Assembly (NCBI RefSeq): GCF_000425365.1
Contig: NZ_AUDH01000001.1
Span: 248,001 to 312,000, forward strand
Length of the DNA stretch: 64,000 bases
Direction of reading: 5' to 3'
Origin: Rubritepida flocculans DSM 14296
Lineage (GTDB): Bacteria > Pseudomonadota > Alphaproteobacteria > Acetobacterales > Acetobacteraceae
In this document: in pieces, positions 21,396 to 51,650 of the stretch
How the letters are laid out: the number at the start of each line of letters is the position of its first letter
Numbering within the stretch: the first letter of the stretch is position 1
Notes under the pieces: generated by a model
The model's database searches: none
What the model saw: only the letters and a program-made list of their open reading frames with translations
What the model was told of the DNA's origin: nothing
Position numbers and translations under genes: made by a program

Positions 21396-21989
21396 TCAGC
21401 GCGGCGCGAGCCCCTGCTCCCGCAGCCAGGCGAGAAGCGGCAGCATGGCCAGGCCAAGAATGGCCGTGTGCTCGCCGCGGATGTCGCGCATGAGCTGGAT
21501 GCCCGGCCCCTCCAGCCGATAGGCCCCCACGCTCTGCGTCACCAGGGCCCCCTCGCGCGCCAGGTACGCGTCGAGGAAAGCGTCCGAGAAGTCGCGCATC
21601 GCAAGCTGCGGCGTGGCGATGTGCTGCCAGGCGCGCTGCCCCGCGCGCCAGCCCACCACGGCCGTGACCAGCTCATGCGCCCGGCCGCGCAGCCGCTCGA
21701 GCTGCCGGCGCGCGGCCTGCACATCGGCCGGCTTGTCGAACCATTCCCCCTCGCAGACCAGAAGCTGGTCGGCGCCGATCACCACCGCCTCGGGATGGCG
21801 GCGGGCGATGCGCGCGGCCTTGGCGTCGGCGAGCAGCAGCGCCGCGTCCGCGGGCGTCATCCCCTCCGCCTTCGCGCTCTCCTTGATGGCGGCCTCGTCC
21901 ACCGCGGCGGGCATGGCCTCGAAGGACAGCCCGGCCGCCTCCAGCAGCGCGCGGCGGGAGGCGCTTTGCGAGGCGAGGATCAGCCTCAT
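21396..21989 (-). CDS. maf: Maf-family nucleoside triphosphate pyrophosphatase
   Basis: 197 residues. The N-terminal motif [18 protein letters not shown] and the active-site Asp region VVIGADQLL are typical of Maf/YceF proteins. They hydrolyse non-canonical or modified nucleoside triphosphates and influence septum formation. The start ATG overlaps the stop of the upstream PEP-synthase regulator gene by 4 bases (ATGA). The order hemE / regulator / maf is that found around the chromosome origin in several alphaproteobacteria. Confidence 0.92.
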
Positions 21990-22879
21990 CCCCGCGCCCC
22001 GATCACCGCCGCCGCCGGGTCTTCCGGCCGCGCGCTGCGCTGCGCGCCCTGGCGCTGGTGCCAGAGCTCCATCTGCTGGATCACGGTGGCCGCCGTCTCC
22101 TCGATGGAGCGGCGCGTCACGTCCACCACCGGCCAGCCGCGCGCGGCGCAGAGCCGCTTGGCGGCGAGGATTTCGGCCTTCACCGCCTCGGCATCCACAT
22201 ACTCGTTCTCGCCCACCCGCACCCCTTCGGCGCCGATCATCTTCAACCGGTGGCGGCGGATTTCGAGCAGCGCCACGGGGTCTATCGTCAGCCCCACCAC
22301 CGGGCAGGGCGGGTTCTCGAGCTCCGGCGGCAGGGGCGCGCCGGGCACCAGCGGCACATTGGCCGCCTTGATGCCGCGGTTGGCAAGGTAGAAGCAGGTC
22401 GGCGTCTTGGAGGAGCGGGAGACGCCCACCAGCACCACATCGGCATTGGCGATGCCCGCCGTGCCCTGGCCGTCATCGTGGCTCAGCACGTAGTGCATCG
22501 CGTCGATGCGGCGGAAGTAGTCGGCGTCCATCACGTATTGCGCCGCGCGCTTCTCCTTCGCGCGCTCGCCGATCTCGCCCTGCAGCAGCTCCATCACCGG
22601 GTCGAGCACCGAAAGGCAGGCGAGGCCGAGCCGCGCGCAGGTCTCCTCCAGCGCGTGGCGCAGGCTCCGGTCCACCAGGGTGAACATGACCGGGCCGGGC
22701 TCGTGCTCGATCCCCTCGATCACGCGGTCGAGGTTGAGGCGCGAGCGCACGAGGAACCAGCGGTGCTGGATCACGTTCGGGTTGTCGAAGCGCGCGATGG
22801 CGGCGCGGGCGATGCTGTTCAGCGTCTCGCCCGTGCTGTCGGAGACGAGGTGCAGGTTGGTCTGCCGCGGGGTGGGCAT
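21986..22879 (-). CDS. Pyruvate, phosphate/water dikinase regulatory protein (DUF299 kinase/pyrophosphorylase)
   Basis: 297 residues from the ATG at 22877-22879 ([20 protein letters not shown]). The opening [11 protein letters not shown] and the nucleotide loop [13 protein letters not shown] are diagnostic of the DUF299 family. These are bifunctional ADP-dependent Thr kinases and phosphorylases that switch PEP synthase or pyruvate phosphate dikinase. The open frame runs on to 23143 but without family sequence. It is divergent from hemE across the candidate replication origin and coupled to maf (ATGA). Confidence 0.93.
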
Positions 22880-23172
22880 GGCGCTGTGGACCGTGCGTGT
22901 GCACGGATGGGGATAGCGGGGAAGACTCGCCCGCGCCAGCGCGGGGGCCTCGCCAGGCGGGGACAAATGGCTCGCGCCCCACCTCCGGGGAAAGCCGGTC
23001 AGCGCGCTGGCGGCGGCTGGGGATGGCAGCCGAAAACCCAGGCTGCACGCAGAGTCCCGTCCCGGTCCAGCCCCGGAACAAGGCTGTGGACAGGCGGTGG
23101 AGCGGCTGCATCCCCATGATCCACAGGGCCAACCACCACTCACCGCCCTTCTTCTTTTTCCTTTTTCAAGGG
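22880..23172. other. Candidate chromosomal replication origin (oriC)
   Basis: About 293 bases without genes between the DUF299 gene and hemE, the same neighbours that flank Cori in Caulobacter as I recall it. It holds DnaA-box-like sites TGATCCACA (23117-23125, plus strand) and, on the minus strand, CTGTCCACA (23085-23093) and CGGTCCACA (22885-22893). TCCCCA-type hexamers lie at 23111-23116 (plus) and at 22908-22913 and 23018-23023 (minus). TGATCCACA and TCCCCA match the G-box and W-box words I know from Caulobacter. The only pyrimidine/AT-rich tract nearby is at 23149-23169, a possible unwinding region. Two GANTC methylation sites (22924, 23052) are present. No CtrA TTAA-N7-TTAA site is seen. 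Confidence 0.75.
23111..23125 (+). promoter_or_regulatory. Abutting W-box and G-box-like DnaA sites
   Basis: TCCCCA is followed without gap by TGATCCACA, which differs from the E. coli DnaA box TTATCCACA at one base. It sits 24 bases before the pyrimidine/AT tract, the arrangement expected for DnaA loading next to an unwinding element. Confidence 0.65.
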
Positions 23173-23184
23173 ATGGTTCGCGCC

Positions 23185-24219
23185 ATGGACACGAAGCCCT
23201 TCCTCCAGGCCCTCGCCGGCGAGGCGGTCTGGCCGCCCCCGGTGTGGCTGATGCGCCAGGCGGGGCGCTACCTGCCCGAATACCGGCGCACCCGCGCCAT
23301 CGCGGGCGATTTCATCGCGCTCTGCACCACGCCCGAGCTGGCGGCGGAGGTGACGCTGCAGCCCATCCGGCGCTACGGCTTCGACGCGGCGATCCTGTTC
23401 TCCGACATCCTGATGGTGCCCTGGGCCATGGGCCAGGGGCTGCGCTTCGCCGAGGGCGAGGGCCCGCTGCTCGAGCCGGTGCGCGACCGCGCCGCGCTGG
23501 AGGCGCTGGACCTGCCCGGGGTGGTGGACCGCGCCGCCCCCATCCTGGAGACGGTGCGCCGCGTGCGCGCGGGGCTGGCCATGCACCCCGGCACGGCGCT
23601 GATCGGCTTCGCCGGCAGCCCCTGGACGGTGGCCTGCTACATGGTCGAGGGCCGCGGCGGCGGCGAGTTCGCCGAGGCGCGCCGCGCCGCCTTCCGCGAC
23701 CCGGTGTTCTTCGCGGAGGTGATGGAGAAGCTCGAGGCCGCCACCCTCGCCTACCTGCTGGCGCAGGCCGAGGCGGGGGCCGAGGCGCTGATGCTGTTCG
23801 ATTCCTGGGCGGGGCTGCTTTCGCCCTCCGGCTTCCGGCGCTGGGTGATCGAGCCCACGGCGCGGCTCGCGGCCGCGCTGCGCGATCTGCGCCCGGATGT
23901 GCCACTGATCGGCTTCCCGCGCCTCGCCGGGCCGCTGCTCGCGGAGTATGCGGCGCGGGTGCCGGTGCAGGCGGTGGCCATGGACACCGGCATGGACCCC
24001 GCCTGGGCCGCCGCGCATGTACCGCCGCGCATGGCGCTGCAGGGCAACCTCGATCCGCAGGCGCTGGTGGCGGGCGGCCCCGCCATGGAGCAGGAGGTGC
24101 GCGCCATCCTCGCCGCCATGAAGGGCCGGCCCTTCGTCTTCAACCTGGGCCACGGGATCGTTCCCCCCACCCCGCCCGAGCATGTGGCGCGGCTGATGGA
24201 GGTGCTGCGCGCGGGTTGA
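23185..24219 (+). CDS. hemE: Uroporphyrinogen III decarboxylase
   Basis: 344 residues from ATG 23185 ([12 protein letters not shown]). An in-frame ATG at 23173 would add MVRA and cannot be excluded; AAGGG stands directly before it. The signature [11 protein letters not shown] is near residue 25, with the conserved active-site Asp in [29 protein letters not shown] and [15 protein letters not shown] are also typical. It converts uroporphyrinogen III to coproporphyrinogen III in heme synthesis. hemH follows after 52 bases. Confidence 0.96.
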
Positions 24220-24271
24220 TTCCGCCGCGTTCAGGGGTATGTGCAGCACTCCTTCCGGAGATGTGGGGCTG

Positions 24272-25354
24272 ATGGCGCGGCGCGTGGCGGTGGTGTTGTT
24301 CAACCTGGGCGGGCCCGACGCGCCCGAGAGCGTGCGCCCCTTCCTGGTGAACCTGTTCACGGACCCGGCGATCCTGCGCGTGCCGGGCTTCATCCGGCCC
24401 TGGCTCGGCCGGCTCATCGCCTGGCGGCGCACCGCCCCGGCCATGGAGAACTACGCCGTGCTGGGCGGGAAATCCCCGCTGCTGGAGCTCACGGAGGAGC
24501 AGGCGCGCGCGCTCGACGCCGCGCTGGCCGAACGCGACCCTTCGGCCGAGTATCGCAGCTTCGTCTGCATGCGCTACTGGCACCCGATGAGCGAGGCGGC
24601 CGCCCGCGCCGTGAAGGAATGGGGCGCGGAGGAGGTTCTGCTGGTCCCGCTTTATCCGCAATACTCCACCACCACCACGGGCAGCTCCATCGCCGCCTGG
24701 GAGGAGGCGGCGCGGCGCGTGGGGCTCGCGGTCCCCACCACCACGCTGTGCTGCTTCCACTCCGACCCCGGCTTCGCCGAGGCCACGGCGCGGCTGCTGC
24801 GCGAGGCTCTGGCCAAGGCGCGGGCCGAGCTGCCGGCGGGGGTGGGGCTGCGCGTGCTGTTCTCGGCGCATGGCCTGCCCGAGAGCATCGTGAAGGCGGG
24901 CGACCCCTACCAGTGGCAGGTGGAGCAGACCGTGGCCGCGGTGCTGGAGAAGCTGGGCGAACCCGGCCTCGACAGCGTGGTGTGCTATCAGTCCCGCGTC
25001 ACGCCGCAGAAATGGATCGGGCCCTCCACCGAGGAGGAGATCGAGCGCGCGGCGCACGACAAGGTGGCGATCCTCGTCTGCCCCATCGCCTTCGTCTCGG
25101 AACATTCCGAGACCCTGGTGGAGCTCGACGTGGAGTACCGCGAGGAGGCGGAGAAGCTCGGCGTGCCCGGCTATTTCCGCGTGCCGGCGCAGAACAGCGA
25201 TCCGGGCTTCATCGCGAGCCTCGCCGATCTGGTGCTGCGCGCGCGCCGCTCCGGCCGGGCGCTGTGCAGCTTCGCGGGCGCGCGGCAATGCCCCAAGGCG
25301 CATGGTGACTGCCCGCACGCCCGGGCCCGCGCGGAGGCGCGCCAGGCGGCGTGA
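24272..25354 (+). CDS. hemH: Ferrochelatase
   Basis: 360 residues from ATG 24272 (MARRVAVVLFNLGGPD); an in-frame ATG at 24239 would add 11 residues without family similarity. Motifs include LFNLGGPD, the iron-site His in LFSAHGLPE and the conserved Glu of FVSEHSETLVELD. The C-terminal tail has CSFAGARQCPKAHGDCPH, three closely placed Cys. Some alphaproteobacterial and metazoan ferrochelatases carry a [2Fe-2S] cluster in this region, so that is possible here. Inserts Fe2+ into protoporphyrin IX, downstream of hemE. Confidence 0.96.
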   Translation: MARRVAVVLFNLGGPDAPESVRPFLVNLFTDPAILRVPGFIRPWLGRLIAWRRTAPAMENYAVLGGKSPLLELTEEQARALDAALAERDPSAEYRSFVCMRYWHPMSEAAARAVKEWGAEEVLLVPLYPQYSTTTTGSSIAAWEEAARRVGLAVPTTTLCCFHSDPGFAEATARLLREALAKARAELPAGVGLRVLFSAHGLPESIVKAGDPYQWQVEQTVAAVLEKLGEPGLDSVVCYQSRVTPQKWIGPSTEEEIERAAHDKVAILVCPIAFVSEHSETLVELDVEYREEAEKLGVPGYFRVPAQNSDPGFIASLADLVLRARRSGRALCSFAGARQCPKAHGDCPHARARAEARQAA

Positions 25355-43651: not shown

Positions 43652-44005
43652 ATGGCCGAGGCCGACCCCCCGCCCTTCTACACCGCGCATGTCTTCGTCT
43701 GCTGCAACCGCCGGCCCGAGGGGCACCGGCGCGGGAGCTGCGCGGCGCGGGGCAGCGAGGCGCTGCGCGACTACATGAAGGCGCGCGCGAAGGAGCTGGG
43801 GCTGCCGGGCGTACGGGTGAACATGGCCGGCTGCCTGGACCGCTGCGAGTTCGGGCCCGCCATCGTCATCTACCCCGAGGGCATTTGGTACCGGGCCGAG
43901 ACGCGCGAGGACGTGGACGAAATCCTGACCGCGCATCTCGTGCAGGGCGGCCGCGCGCGGCGCCTGATGCTGACGGAAAAGGACGTGCCCCCGGCCAAGG
44001 CGTGA
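43652..44005 (+). CDS. Thioredoxin-like [2Fe-2S] ferredoxin
   Basis: 117 residues. FVCCNRRPEGHRRGSCAARGSEAL gives the first cluster ligands and MAGCLDRCEFGPAIVIYPEG the other two, the standard pattern of thioredoxin-fold 2Fe-2S ferredoxins (NuoE-like, as in Shethna-type proteins). It is a soluble electron carrier. The last three bases overlap the GTG start of mnmE (GTGA). Confidence 0.87.
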   Translation: MAEADPPPFYTAHVFVCCNRRPEGHRRGSCAARGSEALRDYMKARAKELGLPGVRVNMAGCLDRCEFGPAIVIYPEGIWYRAETREDVDEILTAHLVQGGRARRLMLTEKDVPPAKA

Positions 44006-45300
44006 CGGGCGGGACGATCTTCGCCCTCGCCTCCGGCCCGGGGCGGGCGGCGGTGGCGGTGATGCGGCTCTCGGGGCCCGAGACGGGGCGGCTGCTGGAG
44101 GCGCTGGCTGGGCCCCTGCCCGCGCCGCGCCGCGCCAGCCTGCGCCGCCTGCGCCAGGGCGGCGAGGTGCTGGACCGCGCCCTGGTGCTCTGGTTCCCGG
44201 CCCCCGCCTCCTACACGGGCGAGGATGCGGCGGAGCTGCACCTGCATGGCGGGCCGGCGGTGGTGGCCGCCGTCGCCGAGGCGCTCGCCGGGCTCGGCGC
44301 GCGCCCGGCCGAGCCCGGGGAGTTCACGCGCCGCGCCTTCCAGCACGGCAGGCTCGACCTGACCGAGGCGGAGGGGATCGCCGATCTGATCGCCGCCGAG
44401 ACCGAGGCGCAGCGGCGCCAGGCGCTGCGCCAGGCGGAGGGCGGGCTCTCGGCGCGGCTCTCGGCCTGGGCGACGGCGCTGACGCGGCTGCTGGCGCGGC
44501 AGGAGGCCTTCATCGAGTTCGAGGAGGAGGATCTGCCGGCCGACCTCGACGCGCGGGTGGCGGCGGAGGCGGCGGCACTGCGCGGCGAGATGGCGGCGCT
44601 GCTCGCCGAGGGCGGGCGGGGGGAGCGGCTGCGCGAGGGGGTGGCGGTGGCCATCCTCGGCGCGCCGAATGCGGGCAAATCCTCGCTGCTCAACGCGCTG
44701 GCGGGGCGGGAGGCGGCCATCGTCTCGGCCCGGGCGGGCACGACGCGCGATGTGGTGGAGGTGCGCCTTGTCCTGGCCGGCGTGCCGGTGACGCTGGCGG
44801 ACACGGCCGGGCTGCGCGAGACGGCGGACGAGATCGAGGCGGAAGGGGTGCGCCGGGCGCTGGCCCGCGCCGAGGCGGCGGAGCTGCGTCTGCTCGTCTT
44901 TCCCGCCGATGCGCCGCCGGATGCCGCCACACTTGCCCTGCGCGGCCCGGGGGCGCTGGTGGTGGGCAGCAAGGCCGATCTGGGGCCGCCCGTGGTGGAG
45001 GGGGCGCTCGCCGTCTCGACCCGCACGGGCGAGGGGATGGCGGCGCTGCGGGCGGCGCTGGAGGCCGAGGTGGCGGCGCGGGCGGGGCTGGCGGCGGAAG
45101 CCGGCCTCACCCGCCCGCGCCACCGCGCGGCGCTCGGCGAGGCGGTGCAGTGGCTCGCCCGGCTGGAGGAGGCGCCCCTGCCCGAGCTGCGGGCCGAGGC
45201 GCTGCGCGGGGCGCTGGCGGCGCTGGGGCGCCTGACCGGGCGGGTCGGGGTCGAGGCGGTGCTCGATGTGGTGTTCGGGGAGTTCTGCATCGGCAAATAG
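44002..45300 (+). CDS. mnmE: tRNA modification GTPase MnmE (TrmE)
   Basis: 432 residues from a GTG at 44002. The N-terminal folate-binding domain includes TIFALASGPGRAAVAVMRLSG and PGEFTRRAFQHGRLDLTEAEGI. The GTPase domain has G1 GAPNAGKSSLLNAL, G3 DTAGLRET and G4-like GSKAD. The protein ends in the conserved FCIGK, whose Cys is needed for function. With MnmG it installs the cmnm5 group on wobble U34 of tRNA. Normally next to mnmG in alphaproteobacteria; here one foreign-looking gene lies between. Confidence 0.96.
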   Translation: MTGGTIFALASGPGRAAVAVMRLSGPETGRLLEALAGPLPAPRRASLRRLRQGGEVLDRALVLWFPAPASYTGEDAAELHLHGGPAVVAAVAEALAGLGARPAEPGEFTRRAFQHGRLDLTEAEGIADLIAAETEAQRRQALRQAEGGLSARLSAWATALTRLLARQEAFIEFEEEDLPADLDARVAAEAAALRGEMAALLAEGGRGERLREGVAVAILGAPNAGKSSLLNALAGREAAIVSARAGTTRDVVEVRLVLAGVPVTLADTAGLRETADEIEAEGVRRALARAEAAELRLLVFPADAPPDAATLALRGPGALVVGSKADLGPPVVEGALAVSTRTGEGMAALRAALEAEVAARAGLAAEAGLTRPRHRAALGEAVQWLARLEEAPLPELRAEALRGALAALGRLTGRVGVEAVLDVVFGEFCIGK

Positions 45301-45378
45301 GGGCCGGCCGCGCGATCCTGCTTGATGGCGGCGCGCGGCGGCGCGAGGCTTCGGGCAATCGACACGGGAGAGAACGCC

Positions 45379-46359
45379 ATGCCCCCTCGCCTGCCGCGCC
45401 GCGCGGCCCTTGCCCTGCCCGGCCTGCTGGCCGCGCCCGCCCTGGCCCAGCCGGCCTGGCCCGACCGGCCGATCACCATGATCGTGCCCTTCCCGCCCGG
45501 CGGCACGCCCGACATCGGCGCGCGGCTGATGGCGCCGAAGATGAGCGAGTTCCTGGGCCAGCCCGTGACGGTGGAGAACCGTGCGGGGGCGGGGGCCACC
45601 ATCGGCACCCGCGCCGTGGTGCAGGCGCGGCCCGACGGGCACACGGTGCTGATGGGCTCGATCTCCTTCCTCACCTCGCCGCTGACCATGCGGCCCATGC
45701 CCTATGACCCGGTGGCGGATCTGCGGGTGGTGAGCCTCGTCTCCACCTCGCCCTACATCCTCGTGGTGCGGGCGGATGCGCCGCCGCGCGACATCGCGGG
45801 CTTCCATGCCTGGACGCGGGCGGAGGGCGCGCGGCTGAACTACGGCTCGGCCGGGGTGGGCACGCCGCTGCACCTGGGCGGGGAGCTCTACAAGATGATG
45901 ATGGGCGTGGACCTGACCCATGTGCCCTATCGCGGCAGCGGCCCGGCGCTGACGGCGCTGCTGGCGGGCGAGGTGAACATGGTCTTCGCCGATGTGCCCG
46001 GCGCCTCCGGCCACATCCGCGCCGGCACGGTGCGGGCGCTGGCGGCGATGACCGAGACGCGCATCGCCCAGTTCCCGGAGGTGCCGACCATGGCGGAGAG
46101 CGACCGGCGCCTCGCGGGCTATGACGTGTACACCTGGGCGATGCTGGTGGCCCCCAAGGCCACCCCGGACGGGCCGGTGCGCCGGCTGCACGAGGCCGCG
46201 ATCCGCGCCGCCCGCGCCGAGGATGTGGCGCGGCGCTTCGCGGAGCTGGGCTTCGACTATGTGGGCTCGGGCCCGGCGGACGGGGATGCGCGCCTCGCCC
46301 GCGAGGCGGTGAAGTGGCGCGAGGTGATCGAGCGCGGGAACATCCGGGCGGAAGGCTGA
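45379..46359 (+). CDS. Bug-family (TctC) periplasmic binding receptor
   Basis: 326 residues from ATG 45379 with GGGAGAG upstream. Signal: [22 protein letters not shown]. Typical Bug features: [50 protein letters not shown]. Bug proteins deliver small carboxylates to TctAB-type membrane proteins, but no tctA/tctB gene is near; isolated Bug genes are very common in beta- and Acetobacteraceae genomes. Inserted between mnmE and mnmG. Confidence 0.9.
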
Positions 46360-46400
46360 CCCCTCCCGCTCGGCCCGCCGGGCCTGCTACACGCCCGGCC

Positions 46401-48278
46401 ATGTTCGATGCGGTGTTCGACGTGGTGGTGGTGGGCGGCGGGCATGCCGGCTGCGAGGCGGCTGCCGCCGCGGCGCGGGTGGGCGCGCGCACCCTGCTGC
46501 TGACGCATGACCCGGCGAAGCTCGGCGAGATGTCCTGCAACCCGGCCATCGGGGGCATCGGCAAGGGGCATCTGGTGCGCGAGGTGGACGCGCTGGACGG
46601 GCTGATGGGCCGCGCGGCGGATGCTGCGGGCATCCACTTCAAGCTGCTCAATCGTTCCAAGGGGCCGGCGGTGCGGGGCCCGCGCGCCCAGGCGGACCGC
46701 AAGCTCTACCGCCAGGCGGTGCAGGCGCTGCTGGCCGCCACGCCGGGGCTGACCATCTGGGGCGAGGCCGCGGAGGATCTTCTCCTCGGGGCGGGGCGGG
46801 TGGAGGGGGTACTCACCGCCGCCGGGCGGCGCGTGGGCTGCGGGGCCGTGGTGATCACCACGGGCACCTTCCTGCGCGGCGTGATCCACATCGGCGAGAG
46901 GCGCATCCCGGCCGGGCGCGTGGGAGAGGCCCCGGCGGTCGGGCTGGCGCTGGCGCTGGAGCGGCTGGGTCTTCCCCTCGCGCGGCTCAAGACCGGCACG
47001 CCCCCGCGCCTCGATGGCCGGAGCATCGACTGGGCCGCGCTGGAGGCCCAGCCCGGCGATGCGGCGCCCGAGCCCCTCTCCTGGATGACGGAGCGCATCA
47101 GCAACCCGCAGGTCAGTTGCGCCATCACCCACACCACGGCCCGCACCCACGAGATCATCCGCGGCAGCCTGCACCTCTCGGCCGTCTATGGCGGGCGGAT
47201 TGAGGGGGTGGGCCCGCGCTACTGCCCCTCGGTGGAGGACAAGGTGGTGCGCTTCGCCGACAAGCCGCGCCACCAGATCTTCCTGGAGCCGGAGGGGCTG
47301 GACGACGACACGGTGTACCCCAACGGCATCTCCACCAGCCTGCCGGAGGAGGTGCAGGCCGCGCTGGTGGCGAGCATTCCCGGGCTGGAGCGGGCGCGCA
47401 TCCTTCGGCCGGGCTACGCCATCGAGTACGACCATGTGGACCCGCGCGCCCTCTGGCCCACCCTTGAATGCCGCGCCGTCGCGGGGTTGTTCCTGGCGGG
47501 CCAGATCAACGGCACCACCGGCTATGAGGAGGCCGCGGCGCAGGGCGTGCTGGCCGGGGTGAACGCGGCCCATGCCGCCGCGCGCGGCGCCCCTCCTGCC
47601 GTGCTGACGCGCGCCGAGGCCTATATGGGCGTGCTGGTGGACGACCTGACGCTGCATGGCGTGAGCGAACCCTACCGGATGCTCACCGCACGGTCTGAAT
47701 ACCGGCTCTCGCTGCGCGCCGACAATGCGGGCATGCGGCTGACGGAGAAGGGCATCGCCTGGGGCGTGGTGGGCGGGGCGCGGGCCGCCGCGCACCGGGC
47801 CTTCGCCGCCGCCGCGGAAGCGGCGATCGCGCGCGCCCGCGCCGAGGGGGCGACGCCCGCCGCCTACGCCGCCGCCGGCGTGCCGGTGAACGCCGATGGG
47901 CGCTGGCGCAGCCTGTTCGAGGCGCTGTCCCTGCCCTCGGCGGAGGTCGAGGCGCTGGCGACGCTCTTCCCCTGGCTGCGCGGGCTTCCGCCGCGCGTGC
48001 TCGCCCATCTGGAGGCGGAGGCGCTCTACGCCCCCTATCTCGCCCGGCATGAGAGCGAGCGCGCGTTGCTGGCGCGGGAGGAGGCGCTGCCCATCCCGCC
48101 GGACCTGGACTTCGCGGCCATCGCGGGCCTCTCCAACGAGATGAGGGACCGCCTCTCCCGCGCGCGGCCGGCCACGCTCGGGGGCGCGGGGCGGCTTCCG
48201 GGCGTGACGCCGGCGGCCGTTGCGGCGCTGGCCGTCCATCTGCGGCGCCGCGCGGGTGTTTCACGTGAAACAGCGTGA
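46401..48278 (+). CDS. mnmG: tRNA uridine-5-carboxymethylaminomethyl modification enzyme MnmG (GidA)
   Basis: 625 residues from ATG 46401 ([21 protein letters not shown]). The FAD loop GGGHAG is at 12-17. The signature blocks [24 protein letters not shown] and [15 protein letters not shown] are present. The C-terminal helical MnmE-binding domain includes ISNEM-like [12 protein letters not shown]. It partners MnmE. The last codons (GVSRETA) are written by the first parS site, so the same bases serve coding and segregation. Confidence 0.96.
48257..48272. other. parS centromere site 1
   Basis: TGTTTCACGTGAAACA, a perfect 16-bp palindrome equal to the universal ParB binding site. It lies at the very end of mnmG and spans the probable start codon of rsmG. 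parA and parB are encoded immediately downstream, and the candidate oriC is about 25 kb away. Confidence 0.95.
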
Positions 48279-48868
48279 GCCTCTGCCCGAGGCCCCTGTT
48301 TCACGTGAAACAGAGACGCGGCTGAGGGCCTATCTCGACCTCCTGCTCGCCTGGAACGCGCGGATCAACCTGATCGCCCCCGCCACCGAGGCCACGGCCT
48401 GGGAGCGCCATGTGCTCGACTCCTGGCAGCTCCTGCCCCTTCTGCCGGCGCGCGGCGCGCTGGTCGATCTCGGCTCCGGCGGCGGGTTGCCGGGGCTGGT
48501 GCTGGCCATCGGCCGGACGGAGGAGACGCATCTGGTGGAGAGCGACCGGCGCAAGGCGGCCTTCCTGCTGGAGGCCGCGCGCACCCTCGGCCTCGCGCAT
48601 GTGCGGGTGCAACCGCAGCGAATCGAGGCGGCACGCCTGCCGAAGGCCGCGGTGGTGACGGCGCGCGCGCTGGCGCCGCTCGAGCTGCTCGTCGCGCAAG
48701 CCCATGGAATCCTGGCCCCTGGCGGGGTGGCCGTCTTTCCGAAGGGCCGCCAGGCGGAGGATGAGTTGACGGCGGCCGCGCCGCATTGGTTTATGCGCGT
48801 CGAGCGCTTCGCGAGCCGCACGGACGCGGAGGCCACCATCTTCCGCCTCAGCGAGATCCGCCCTGCCG

Positions 48869-48876
<8 letters not shown>
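48265..48876 (+). CDS. rsmG: 16S rRNA (guanine-N7) methyltransferase RsmG (GidB)
   Basis: 203 residues from a GTG at 48265, inside parS site 1; GTG 48256 gives three more residues and is the alternative. Both overlap the end of mnmG. RsmG blocks: [21 protein letters not shown] and the SAM motif [15 protein letters not shown], then SRRKA-like [19 protein letters not shown]. It methylates G527 of 16S rRNA. The second parS site encodes APVSRET at about residues 9-15. Confidence 0.93.
48297..48312. other. parS centromere site 2
   Basis: A second perfect TGTTTCACGTGAAACA, 40 bases from the first (same start phase plus 40), inside the 5' part of rsmG. Paired parS copies inside the gidA-gidB region are known in other bacteria. 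Confidence 0.95.
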
Positions 48877-49677
<801 letters not shown>

Positions 49678-49681
<4 letters not shown>

Positions 49682-50523
49682 GCAAGCCGCCCGCACTGGG
49701 CCGCGGCCTGTCCGCGCTGCTCGGGGATGCCGCCGCCGCCGCGCCGGGCGCGCCGGGGCTGCGCCATCTGCCGGTGGGGAGCCTGGAGCCCGGCCCCTTC
49801 CAGCCACGTGTGGCCATGGACGAGGCGGCGCTGAACGAGTTGGCGGCCTCCGTGCGGGAGCATGGCGTGCTGCAGCCCTTGCTGGTGCGGCCGCTGAAGG
49901 GCGGCAACGGCCAGCGCTGGCAGATCATCGGCGGCGAGCGCCGCTGGCGCGCCGCCCAAGCCGCCGGGCTGCACGAGGTGCCCGCCCTGGTGCGCGAGTT
50001 GAGCGACCGCGAGGCGATGGCGGCCGGCCTGGTCGAGAACCTCCAGCGCCAGGATCTGAACCCGCTGGAGGAGGCCGAGGGCTACCACCGCCTCACCGAG
50101 CAGTTCGGCCTCACCCAGGAGGCGCTGGCGCGCGCCGTCGGCAAGAGCCGCCCGCATGTGGCGAACACGCTGCGCCTGCTCAACCTGCCCGAGCCCGTGC
50201 GCGAGCTGCTGCGCTCCGGCGCGCTGACGGCGGGCCACGCGCGCCCGCTGCTGGGCGCGAAGGATCCGGTGGCCCTCGCCCAGCAGATCGTGGACAAGGG
50301 GATGAGCGTGCGCCAGGCCGAGGCGCTGGTCGCCGTGCGGAACATCCCGCCCGCGCCGCGCGCGCCCAAGGCGGATGCCGAGACGCGCGCCATGGAGCGG
50401 CGGATCACCGCCCATCTCGGCCTCAAGGTCGCCATCCGGCACGGCCGCCGCGGCGGCCAGGTGGTGATCTCCTACAAGGATCTCGACCAGCTCGACGGGC
50501 TCGTGCGCCTTCTCACGCGCTGA
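49678..50523 (+). CDS. parB: Chromosome partitioning protein ParB (CTPase, parS binding)
   Basis: 281 residues. The CTP-binding GERRWRAAQAAGL region and the motif VENLQRQDLNPLEEAEGYHRL are followed by the helix-turn-helix at about 140-165 (TQEALARAVGKSRPHVANTLRLL) and a C-terminal dimerisation domain. It loads at parS and spreads on DNA. Last gene of the mnmG-rsmG-parA-parB run. A stem-loop follows at 50525. Confidence 0.97.
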
Positions 50524-50545: not shown

Positions 50546-50666
50546 GGCCATGCCCGCCGCCGCCTTTGCCGCCTGCCCACGCCGGGCTTGAGCCCCGGCT
50601 GCCCAGGCTGCCATGCTGCGGCATCGAAGGCGCGGCAGCGCGACCGCGCCCGCAGGAGGAAACCGC

Positions 50667-51650
50667 ATGCCCATTCGCCGCCGCGCCGCCCTTGCCGCGC
50701 CGCTTCTCGCCCTGCCCCCGCTCGCCGGGCCGCGCCGGGTACGCGCGCAGTCCTTCCCCGACCGGCCGGTGCGCTACATCGTCCCCTTCGCCCCGGCGGG
50801 GCTGACCGACATCATGGCCCGGCTCGTCGCCCAGCGCCTCGGCGAGACCTGGAATCGCCCCGTGGTGGTGGAGAACCGCGCCGGCGGCAACGCGATGATC
50901 GGCGCGGACGCCGCAGCGAAATCCCCGCCCGACGGGCACACGCTGCTCGCCATCACCCTCACCCATGCGGTGAACGTCTCGCTCTTCCCCAACGCGCCCT
51001 ATGACCTGATGCGCGATTTCGTGCCGATCTCGGTCCTCGGCTCCCTGCCGCTCGTGGTGGCCGTGCCGGCCGCCGCACCCTACCGCACCCTGGCCAAGTT
51101 CCTCGCCGCGGCGCGCACGCGCAACATGAACGCCGGCTCCTCCGGCAACGGCTCCCCGCCGCATCTGGGGCTGGAGCTGGTGCGCCGGGCGGCCGGGGCG
51201 GGGGCCAACATCACCCATGTCTCCTATCGCGGCGGCGCGCCCGCGGTGACGGATCTCGTCGCCGGCAACCTCGACTTCATCGTGTCGAACCTGCCGGAAT
51301 GCCTCTCCCAGCTCCAGGCGGGGCGGCTGCGCGGCCTCGCCATCACCGGGGCGCAGCGCCACCGCCTCGTTCCCGACATCCCGACCGTGGCCGAGGCGGG
51401 GCAGCCCGGCCTCGCCATGACGAACTGGACGGCGATGCTGACCAACAGCGCGGTGCCGCGCGCCATCCTGGCGGAGATCAGCCGCGCTACCCAGGCCGCC
51501 CTGCGCGACCCCGAGACGCGGCGTCGCGCGGAGGAGGGCGGGTTCGATGTCCTGGCATGGGACATGGACCGCTCCCTCGCCTTCATGACGGAGGAGGTGG
51601 CCCGCTGGGGCCGTCTGGTCCGCGAGGCGCAAATCCGTCCGGACGCCTGA
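50667..51650 (+). CDS. Bug-family (TctC) periplasmic binding receptor
   Basis: 327 residues from ATG 50667, with GCAGGAGGAAACCGC upstream, a strong ribosome site. Signal: PIRRRAALAAPLLALPPLAG followed by RVRAQ. Bug motifs: VRYIVPFAPAGLTDIMAR, VENRAGGNAMIG, SYRGGAPAVTDLVAGNLDFIV. It has no membrane-partner genes nearby. It is a paralogue of the gene at 45379, on the other side of the par block. Confidence 0.9.
   Translation: MPIRRRAALAAPLLALPPLAGPRRVRAQSFPDRPVRYIVPFAPAGLTDIMARLVAQRLGETWNRPVVVENRAGGNAMIGADAAAKSPPDGHTLLAITLTHAVNVSLFPNAPYDLMRDFVPISVLGSLPLVVAVPAAAPYRTLAKFLAAARTRNMNAGSSGNGSPPHLGLELVRRAAGAGANITHVSYRGGAPAVTDLVAGNLDFIVSNLPECLSQLQAGRLRGLAITGAQRHRLVPDIPTVAEAGQPGLAMTNWTAMLTNSAVPRAILAEISRATQAALRDPETRRRAEEGGFDVLAWDMDRSLAFMTEEVARWGRLVREAQIRPDA

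Follow-up and report, generated by a model that had tools for sequence, protein, structure and literature searches.

Whether chromosome replication in Rubritepida flocculans DSM 14296 begins in the gap between a DUF299 gene and hemE is the question raised by this locus. The window, a stretch of 64,000 nucleotides (C1:248001-312000), lies on a 498-kb contig representing 13% of a 3.83-Mb genome in 74 contigs. A preliminary description of its sequence had placed the chromosomal origin, oriC, in a gap of about 300 bases at 22880..23184. The analysis presented here supports that reading, with a probability of about 0.93 that this intergenic region (no strand assigned) is oriC, as predicted from the clustering of DnaA-box sites, synteny across the family and class, the proximity of parS and the polarity of the octamer GGGNAGGG in relatives.

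Gene neighbourhood and known origins at the same address

The gap measures 305 bp from the start of the DUF299 gene (22879) to the ATG of hemE (23185), and is intergenic with hemE and a DUF299/COG1806 gene as its borders. The minus strand carries the DUF299 gene, annotated as a PpsR-type PEP synthase regulatory protein (21986..22879; NF003742, 305.8 bits against a cut-off of 225), and a maf-like gene (21396..21989; best match NF002690, below its curated cut-off, with TIGR00172 at 115 bits against a cut-off of 117.15), while the plus strand carries hemE (23185..24219; TIGR01464; alternative in-frame ATG at 23173) and hemH (24239..25354; TIGR00109). Further along the plus strand are mnmE/trmE (44002..45300; NF003661; start approximate), the open frame of mnmG/gidA (46314..48278; TIGR00136), rsmG/gidB (48262..48876; TIGR00138; start approximate), a parA-like partition ATPase gene (48869..49681; NF041546 below its cut-off, and a position adjoining parB) and parB (49678..50523; TIGR00180). 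Two similar-looking open frames of 345 aa, one between mnmE and mnmG (45322-46359) and the other 3' of parB (50613-51650), appear by eye to encode periplasmic tripartite-type binding proteins, and an NCBIfam search of the two returned no match. The DUF299 protein is 95% identical to that of a Roseococcus MAG, the nearest named match, 86% identical to those of Roseococcus thiosulfatophilus and R. suduntuyensis and 80% identical to that of R. pinisoli, with Roseococcus intermixed among the matches with Rubritepida and Acetobacteraceae MAGs.

The hemE-DUF299 address of an origin is already known. According to the available text of PMC1914354, Cori of Caulobacter crescentus is flanked by hemE (CC3763) and the COG1806/DUF299 gene CC0001, as the preliminary description had stated, and the origin of Rickettsia prowazekii has the hemE-COG1806 boundary genes in common with the present gap, which therefore joins a known type of origin, with an arrangement of predicted DnaA sites that is particular to its lineage. 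The R. prowazekii origin differs in base composition, at 82.55% AT in the same source against 31% in this region. No experimentally mapped Acetobacteraceae origin was recognised in the open-licence papers searched.

DnaA boxes and associated motifs in the gap

Three candidate DnaA boxes are present. On the minus strand, CGGTCCACA lies on the DUF299 side (22885..22893; plus strand TGTGGACCG), and the core box CTGTCCACA (23085..23093; plus strand TGTGGACAG) has CTGTGGA columns that are conserved in an alignment of 89 sequences. On the plus strand, the core box TGATCCACA (23117..23125), the last before the predicted unwinding region, is adjoined by a TCCCCA hexamer (23111..23116), both being identified from sequence, alignment and enrichment. 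Script listing of minus-strand hexamers gave two W-box-like TCCCCA (22908..22913 and 23018..23023; TGGGGA on the plus strand) and three TCCCCG (22917..22922, 22958..22963 and 22986..22991; CGGGGA on the plus strand). All but the three CGGGGA sites had been named in the preliminary description, and the abutting TCCCCA and TGATCCACA (by direct reading as well as by script), both boxes of the other strand and the two further TGGGGA were found where it had placed them. The two GANTC sites that it listed, GACTC at 22924..22928, a candidate CcrM site, and GAGTC at 23052..23056 (neither assigned a strand), are likewise present in the script listing.

Chance expectations were derived from dinucleotide shuffles of the 305 bp (n=2000). 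TCCACA occurs three times against 0.10 expected, with 0 of 2000 shuffles having as many; TCCCCA three times against 0.28 (6/2000); and TCCCC[AG] six times against 0.72 (0/2000). The number of GANTC sites in the gap is within chance (2 against 0.75 expected, 349/2000 shuffles having as many). The exact 15-mer TCCCCATGATCCACA has a single occurrence in the 3.83-Mb genome, with 18 more places at 2 mismatches. When the 498-kb contig was scanned in 320-bp windows, only those over the gap reached at least three TCCACA and at least five TCCCC[AG], one other place having three TCCACA but a single TCCCC[AG]; the cluster of DnaA boxes is thus above chance and unlike other places on the contig, which constitutes the 13% of the genome that was scanned. 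This joint threshold was missed at the locus in relatives G004 (3 and 3) and G006 (2 and 4), in both of which other places in the flanks equal the locus in number of TCCACA.

The region is 31% AT compared to 26% for the contig, and a T-rich pyrimidine tract at about 23146-23169 corresponds to the pyrimidine/AT-rich tract previously described ahead of hemE. Within 23100-23184, duplex stability over 25 bp is lowest at 23150-23174, beside the last box, with no weaker window within 5 kb on either side and approximately 0.01% of windows on the contig weaker, making 23146..23174 (plus strand) a candidate DNA unwinding element.

Proximity of parS and strand polarity

Two exact matches to the parS site GTTTCACGTGAAAC (48258..48271 and 48298..48311; no strand assigned) lie at the mnmG-rsmG junction, with parA and parB next and mnmE upstream, an origin-proximal position 25 kb from the gap. 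Exactly two side-by-side parS sites (at most one mismatch) were found 25-51 kb from the locus in all seven genomes of the genus, including this one. G031, from another genus, has five, of which four are on the locus contig at approximately 32-99 kb and one is on another contig. The search was extended to 10 further genomes, with positions taken relative to hemE/DUF299. Sites were located approximately 14-16 kb from the gene pair in G044, G049 and G050 (with a third G044 site, at one mismatch, about 0.5 Mb off) and 66-88 kb from hemE in G028, G033 and G055 (with a second G028 site, at one mismatch, on another contig). G047 had no parS match although the gene pair is kept, and the contig with parS in G057 is not the one with hemE. 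Where the DUF299-hemE pair is broken, parS stays close to one partner: an exact parS pair lies about 5 kb from hemE in G021, with DUF299 about 357 kb off and five other matches elsewhere, and in G039 parS lies 13-15 kb from DUF299, with hemE on another contig.

The octamer GGGNAGGG has been applied as a marker of polarity in alphaproteobacteria (PMC2443382, in the text available). Over 20 stretches of 20 kb per genome, its orientation switches at the locus in G004 (48/19 against 20/72, p 3e-10) and in G015 (52/14 against 16/49, p 4e-10), the octamer pointing outwards from the locus along each arm, and does so more weakly in G006 (17 stretches, p 0.005). An unconstrained scan of every position, in which the terminus was fixed opposite, placed the origin at 2.64-2.84 Mb in G004 (locus at 2.722) and at 0.12-0.36 Mb in G015 (locus at 0.2415), intervals 200-240 kb wide that each contain the gap. 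GGGCAGGG behaved like GGGNAGGG in G004 and G015 but not in G006 (p 0.07), and GGCAGGGC was weak (p 0.03, 0.002 and 0.18 in G004, G015 and G006, respectively). On the R. flocculans contig itself there was no polarity of GGGNAGGG (46/43 against 40/49, p 0.45), and nothing was seen there with the other two octamers. In the single-contig record of G006, numbering starts from the hemE end of the DUF299-hemE gap, as though the origin had been chosen for base 1.

The change in strand composition that had been anticipated at the gap did not show in the GC skew of this contig or of two relatives sampled at 8-10%. The lowest point of the contig's skew falls at 244 kb, a split placed at 270 kb fits nearly as well, and an equally good split was obtained in 806 of 2000 block permutations. 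The sampled skew was also non-significant in G004 (389/2000) and G015 (1325/2000; 20 stretches each); the best G004 fits had no boundary at the locus, and a local cumulative minimum lies approximately 70 kb to one side of it. In G006, the sign of seven distal samples agrees with an origin at the locus, but the 10 taken no more than 100 kb from it give mixed signs. The GC skew of this genus is too faint to settle the position of the origin, and was rejected as proof of it.

Both parS and GGGNAGGG polarity resolve an origin to tens or hundreds of kb only, which leaves some room for the gap merely to be near an origin located elsewhere in the neighbourhood, for example by mnmG-parAB, or for an origin at dnaA, close to which the oriC of Acetobacter pasteurianus 386B has been predicted (PMC3751514, in the part available). 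This is very unlikely here. The joint box threshold is reached nowhere else on the 498-kb contig, dnaA is on contig C6 in R. flocculans, the distance between it and the locus is 0.64-1.03 Mb in G004, G006 and G015, and six dnaA loci contain just one to three scattered TCCACA each in about 4.4 kb. An origin at dnaA was rejected on account of this distance and the few scattered boxes.

Conservation across the Acetobacteraceae and other alphaproteobacterial families

Within the Acetobacteraceae, 110 loci were collected (30 + 80) and dereplicated to 89 regions of 286-880 bp. DUF299 and hemE are divergent around the gap in 107 of the 110 loci, the other three being cut before hemE. Across the 89 regions, TCCACA occurs 237 times against 13.5 expected and is present in 87, TCCCC[AG] occurs 312 times against 94.5, and GANTC 357 times against 133.3, a 2.7-fold enrichment that suggests a link between CcrM-type methylation and the origin. 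Many other genera have GANTC in the tract that follows the last box, where the window has none. The most conserved block is on the hemE side and comprises the reverse box, TCCCC, the forward box, GGCCC and the pyrimidine tract. Both core boxes were found by pattern in 70 regions, and the spacer between them is 23 bp in 41 of these, as it is in the window; in a further 21 it is 12-15, 24 or 34-36 bp, these classes differing by about a turn of the helix, and in the remaining eight it is 89-435 bp. No forward box was found by the pattern used in 14 of the 89 regions.

At the level of the class, a search for hemE covered 142 genomes and found a match in 110, and 83 hemE pieces were examined (18 + 25 from the searches and 40 picked by hand). 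An adjacent divergent DUF299 gene is present in 61 of the 83, including 60 of the 77 from other alphaproteobacterial families. In these 60 regions TCCACA occurs 112 times against 12.8 expected, being present in 50, and TTATCCACA 26 times against 0.2.

In three Acetobacteraceae genomes with no DUF299 match in the search (G028, G029 and G033; loci L158, L160 and L162), two or three copies of TGTACACA are located upstream of hemE, 69-70 bp apart. This sequence also occurs once each in L159 (the broken pair of G021) and L281, is absent from the 89 Acetobacteraceae regions and the R. flocculans contig, and may be a lineage-specific form of the DnaA box.

Transcription of hemE and of DUF299 must start from the gap, and DnaA boxes occur in promoters too (PMC4468827, in its available text), as would be found if the gap were an ordinary divergent promoter region with DnaA acting as a transcription factor. 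An explanation by promoter function only is, however, highly improbable, more so than an origin elsewhere, given the six TCCCC[AG], the three boxes and their preferred spacing, the weakest local duplex and retention across the class, in addition to the proximity of parS and the replichore polarity. An origin in the gap remains the best explanation of these observations.

The candidate unwinding tract and the DnaA-trio rule

The basal unwinding system described in PMC8287927 consists of a DnaA box, a GC spacer and DnaA-trios, with a rule of a box at no more than 2 mismatches and a minimum of three 3'-NAN-5' trios no farther than 16 bp from it; the available text also allows deviant trios without the middle adenine. 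A box, a 4-bp GC spacer, a triplet-phased tract and a weak duplex follow one another in the matching order in the gap. TGATCCACA has 1 mismatch (limit 2), the spacer GGGC occupies 23126..23129 on the plus strand, 3' of the last box, and the C-phased triplets CAA-CCA-CCA-CTC at 23130..23141 (plus strand; 3'-GTT-GGT-GGT-GAG-5' on the opposite strand) are a candidate degenerate DnaA-trio tract.

The gap differs from the published system in that three 3'-NAN-5' are not reached within 16 bp of the box on the strand that we presume to carry the trios. On this presumed strand the rule holds in 8 of the 89 family regions, fewer than the 31.7 of the shuffles, and for the Acetobacteraceae the canonical DnaA-trio rule was rejected. 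With the strands exchanged, 35 of 89 regions conform to it (11.3 in shuffles), as does the gap itself (AAC-CAC-CAC). After the last box, the plus strand is G-poor across the family, at 0-4% G at most positions and 7-25% at four. Within the distance from the last box that the rule allows, at least four C-phased triplets were found in 64 of 89 regions against 15.7 in shuffles, and 38 of 89 have tandem CYA-CYA against 7.6, although relatedness and the patchwork of C-rich and T-rich stretches inflate these and all other contrasts between tract and shuffles. An A-to-A peak at lag 3 in the tract (z +7.7, 89 regions) compares with z +3.1 in a control stretch taken from the DUF299 side. For C at lag 3 the control equals the tract (z +5.7 compared to +5.3), with C runs in 10 of 89 regions against 1.5. 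In the 60 regions from other families, period-3 runs of C were present in 33 against 9.1, and those of A and T were within the range of shuffles (17 against 12.6 and 12 against 7.8, respectively).

A speculative and rather unlikely explanation of this pattern is that Acetobacteraceae, and perhaps many GC-rich alphaproteobacteria, open the origin via a degenerate tract for single-strand DnaA binding in which phasing is set by the G of 3'-GNN-5' (C on the plus strand) instead of by the middle adenine. If true, this replacement would make the published rule for basal unwinding too narrow. Given the inflation of the contrasts by relatedness and uneven base make-up, the degenerate-tract reading is kept as a lead.

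Comparison with the control of Cori

The consensus of the CtrA site is TTAA-N7-TTAA, and the Caulobacter G-box and W-box are taken here to read TGATCCACA and TCCCCA. With these assumed letters both are present in the gap, and to this extent the resemblance to Caulobacter proposed in the preliminary description stands. The CtrA consensus occurs 0 times in the region and in 1 of the 89 Acetobacteraceae regions, unlike the 60 regions of other families, where it is somewhat enriched (9 against 1.4 expected, in 8 regions). On a quick, midpoint-rooted family tree of concatenated DUF299 and hemE (88 tips; branch supports not weighed), TGATCCACA at the last box requires at least four changes and TTATCCACA at least 10. 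The G-box match is therefore not diagnostic of Caulobacter-type control, was rejected as a marker of it, and is better read as the result of repeated change than of shared control.

The likeness to Cori thus comprises the flanking genes common to both, an AT-rich stretch and sites of the G-box and W-box type, the two classes of weak DnaA site that Cori contains (PMC4468827, in its available text). The differences are that Cori has five CtrA sites in the accounts available (PMC1914354, PMC4468827), whereas the gap lacks TTAA-N7-TTAA and any TTAA, and that dnaA is on another contig here. The repeated change of TGATCCACA together with the lack of CtrA consensus sites means that a common address does not imply common control.

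A model for initiation and its implications

In the proposed model, DnaA, encoded on another contig, would bind the two core boxes that face each other across 23 bp (23085-23093 and 23117-23125) and spread towards hemE, aided by TCCCC[AG], as weaker sites, and by the box on the DUF299 side. It would then cross the 4-bp GC spacer onto the triplet-phased G-poor tract, so that the T-rich duplex may open at approximately 23150-23174, just before hemE, where the helicase would be loaded. The right fork would pass hemE, hemH and then the mnmE-mnmG-rsmG-parAB block, and ParB, bound to the parS sites at a distance of 25 kb, would separate the duplicated origin regions.

The predicted origin can be put to the test in a large family that includes Roseococcus, Roseomonas and their kin, and is to be set beside the dnaA-side prediction in Acetobacter (PMC3751514, in the part available). 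It also offers a concrete test of how strictly the DnaA-trio rule applies in GC-rich genomes. Further, these results suggest that a conserved address, defined by hemE-DUF299 and parS, is separable from a changing control, marked in this family by drifting box letters and no CtrA consensus site in the gap.
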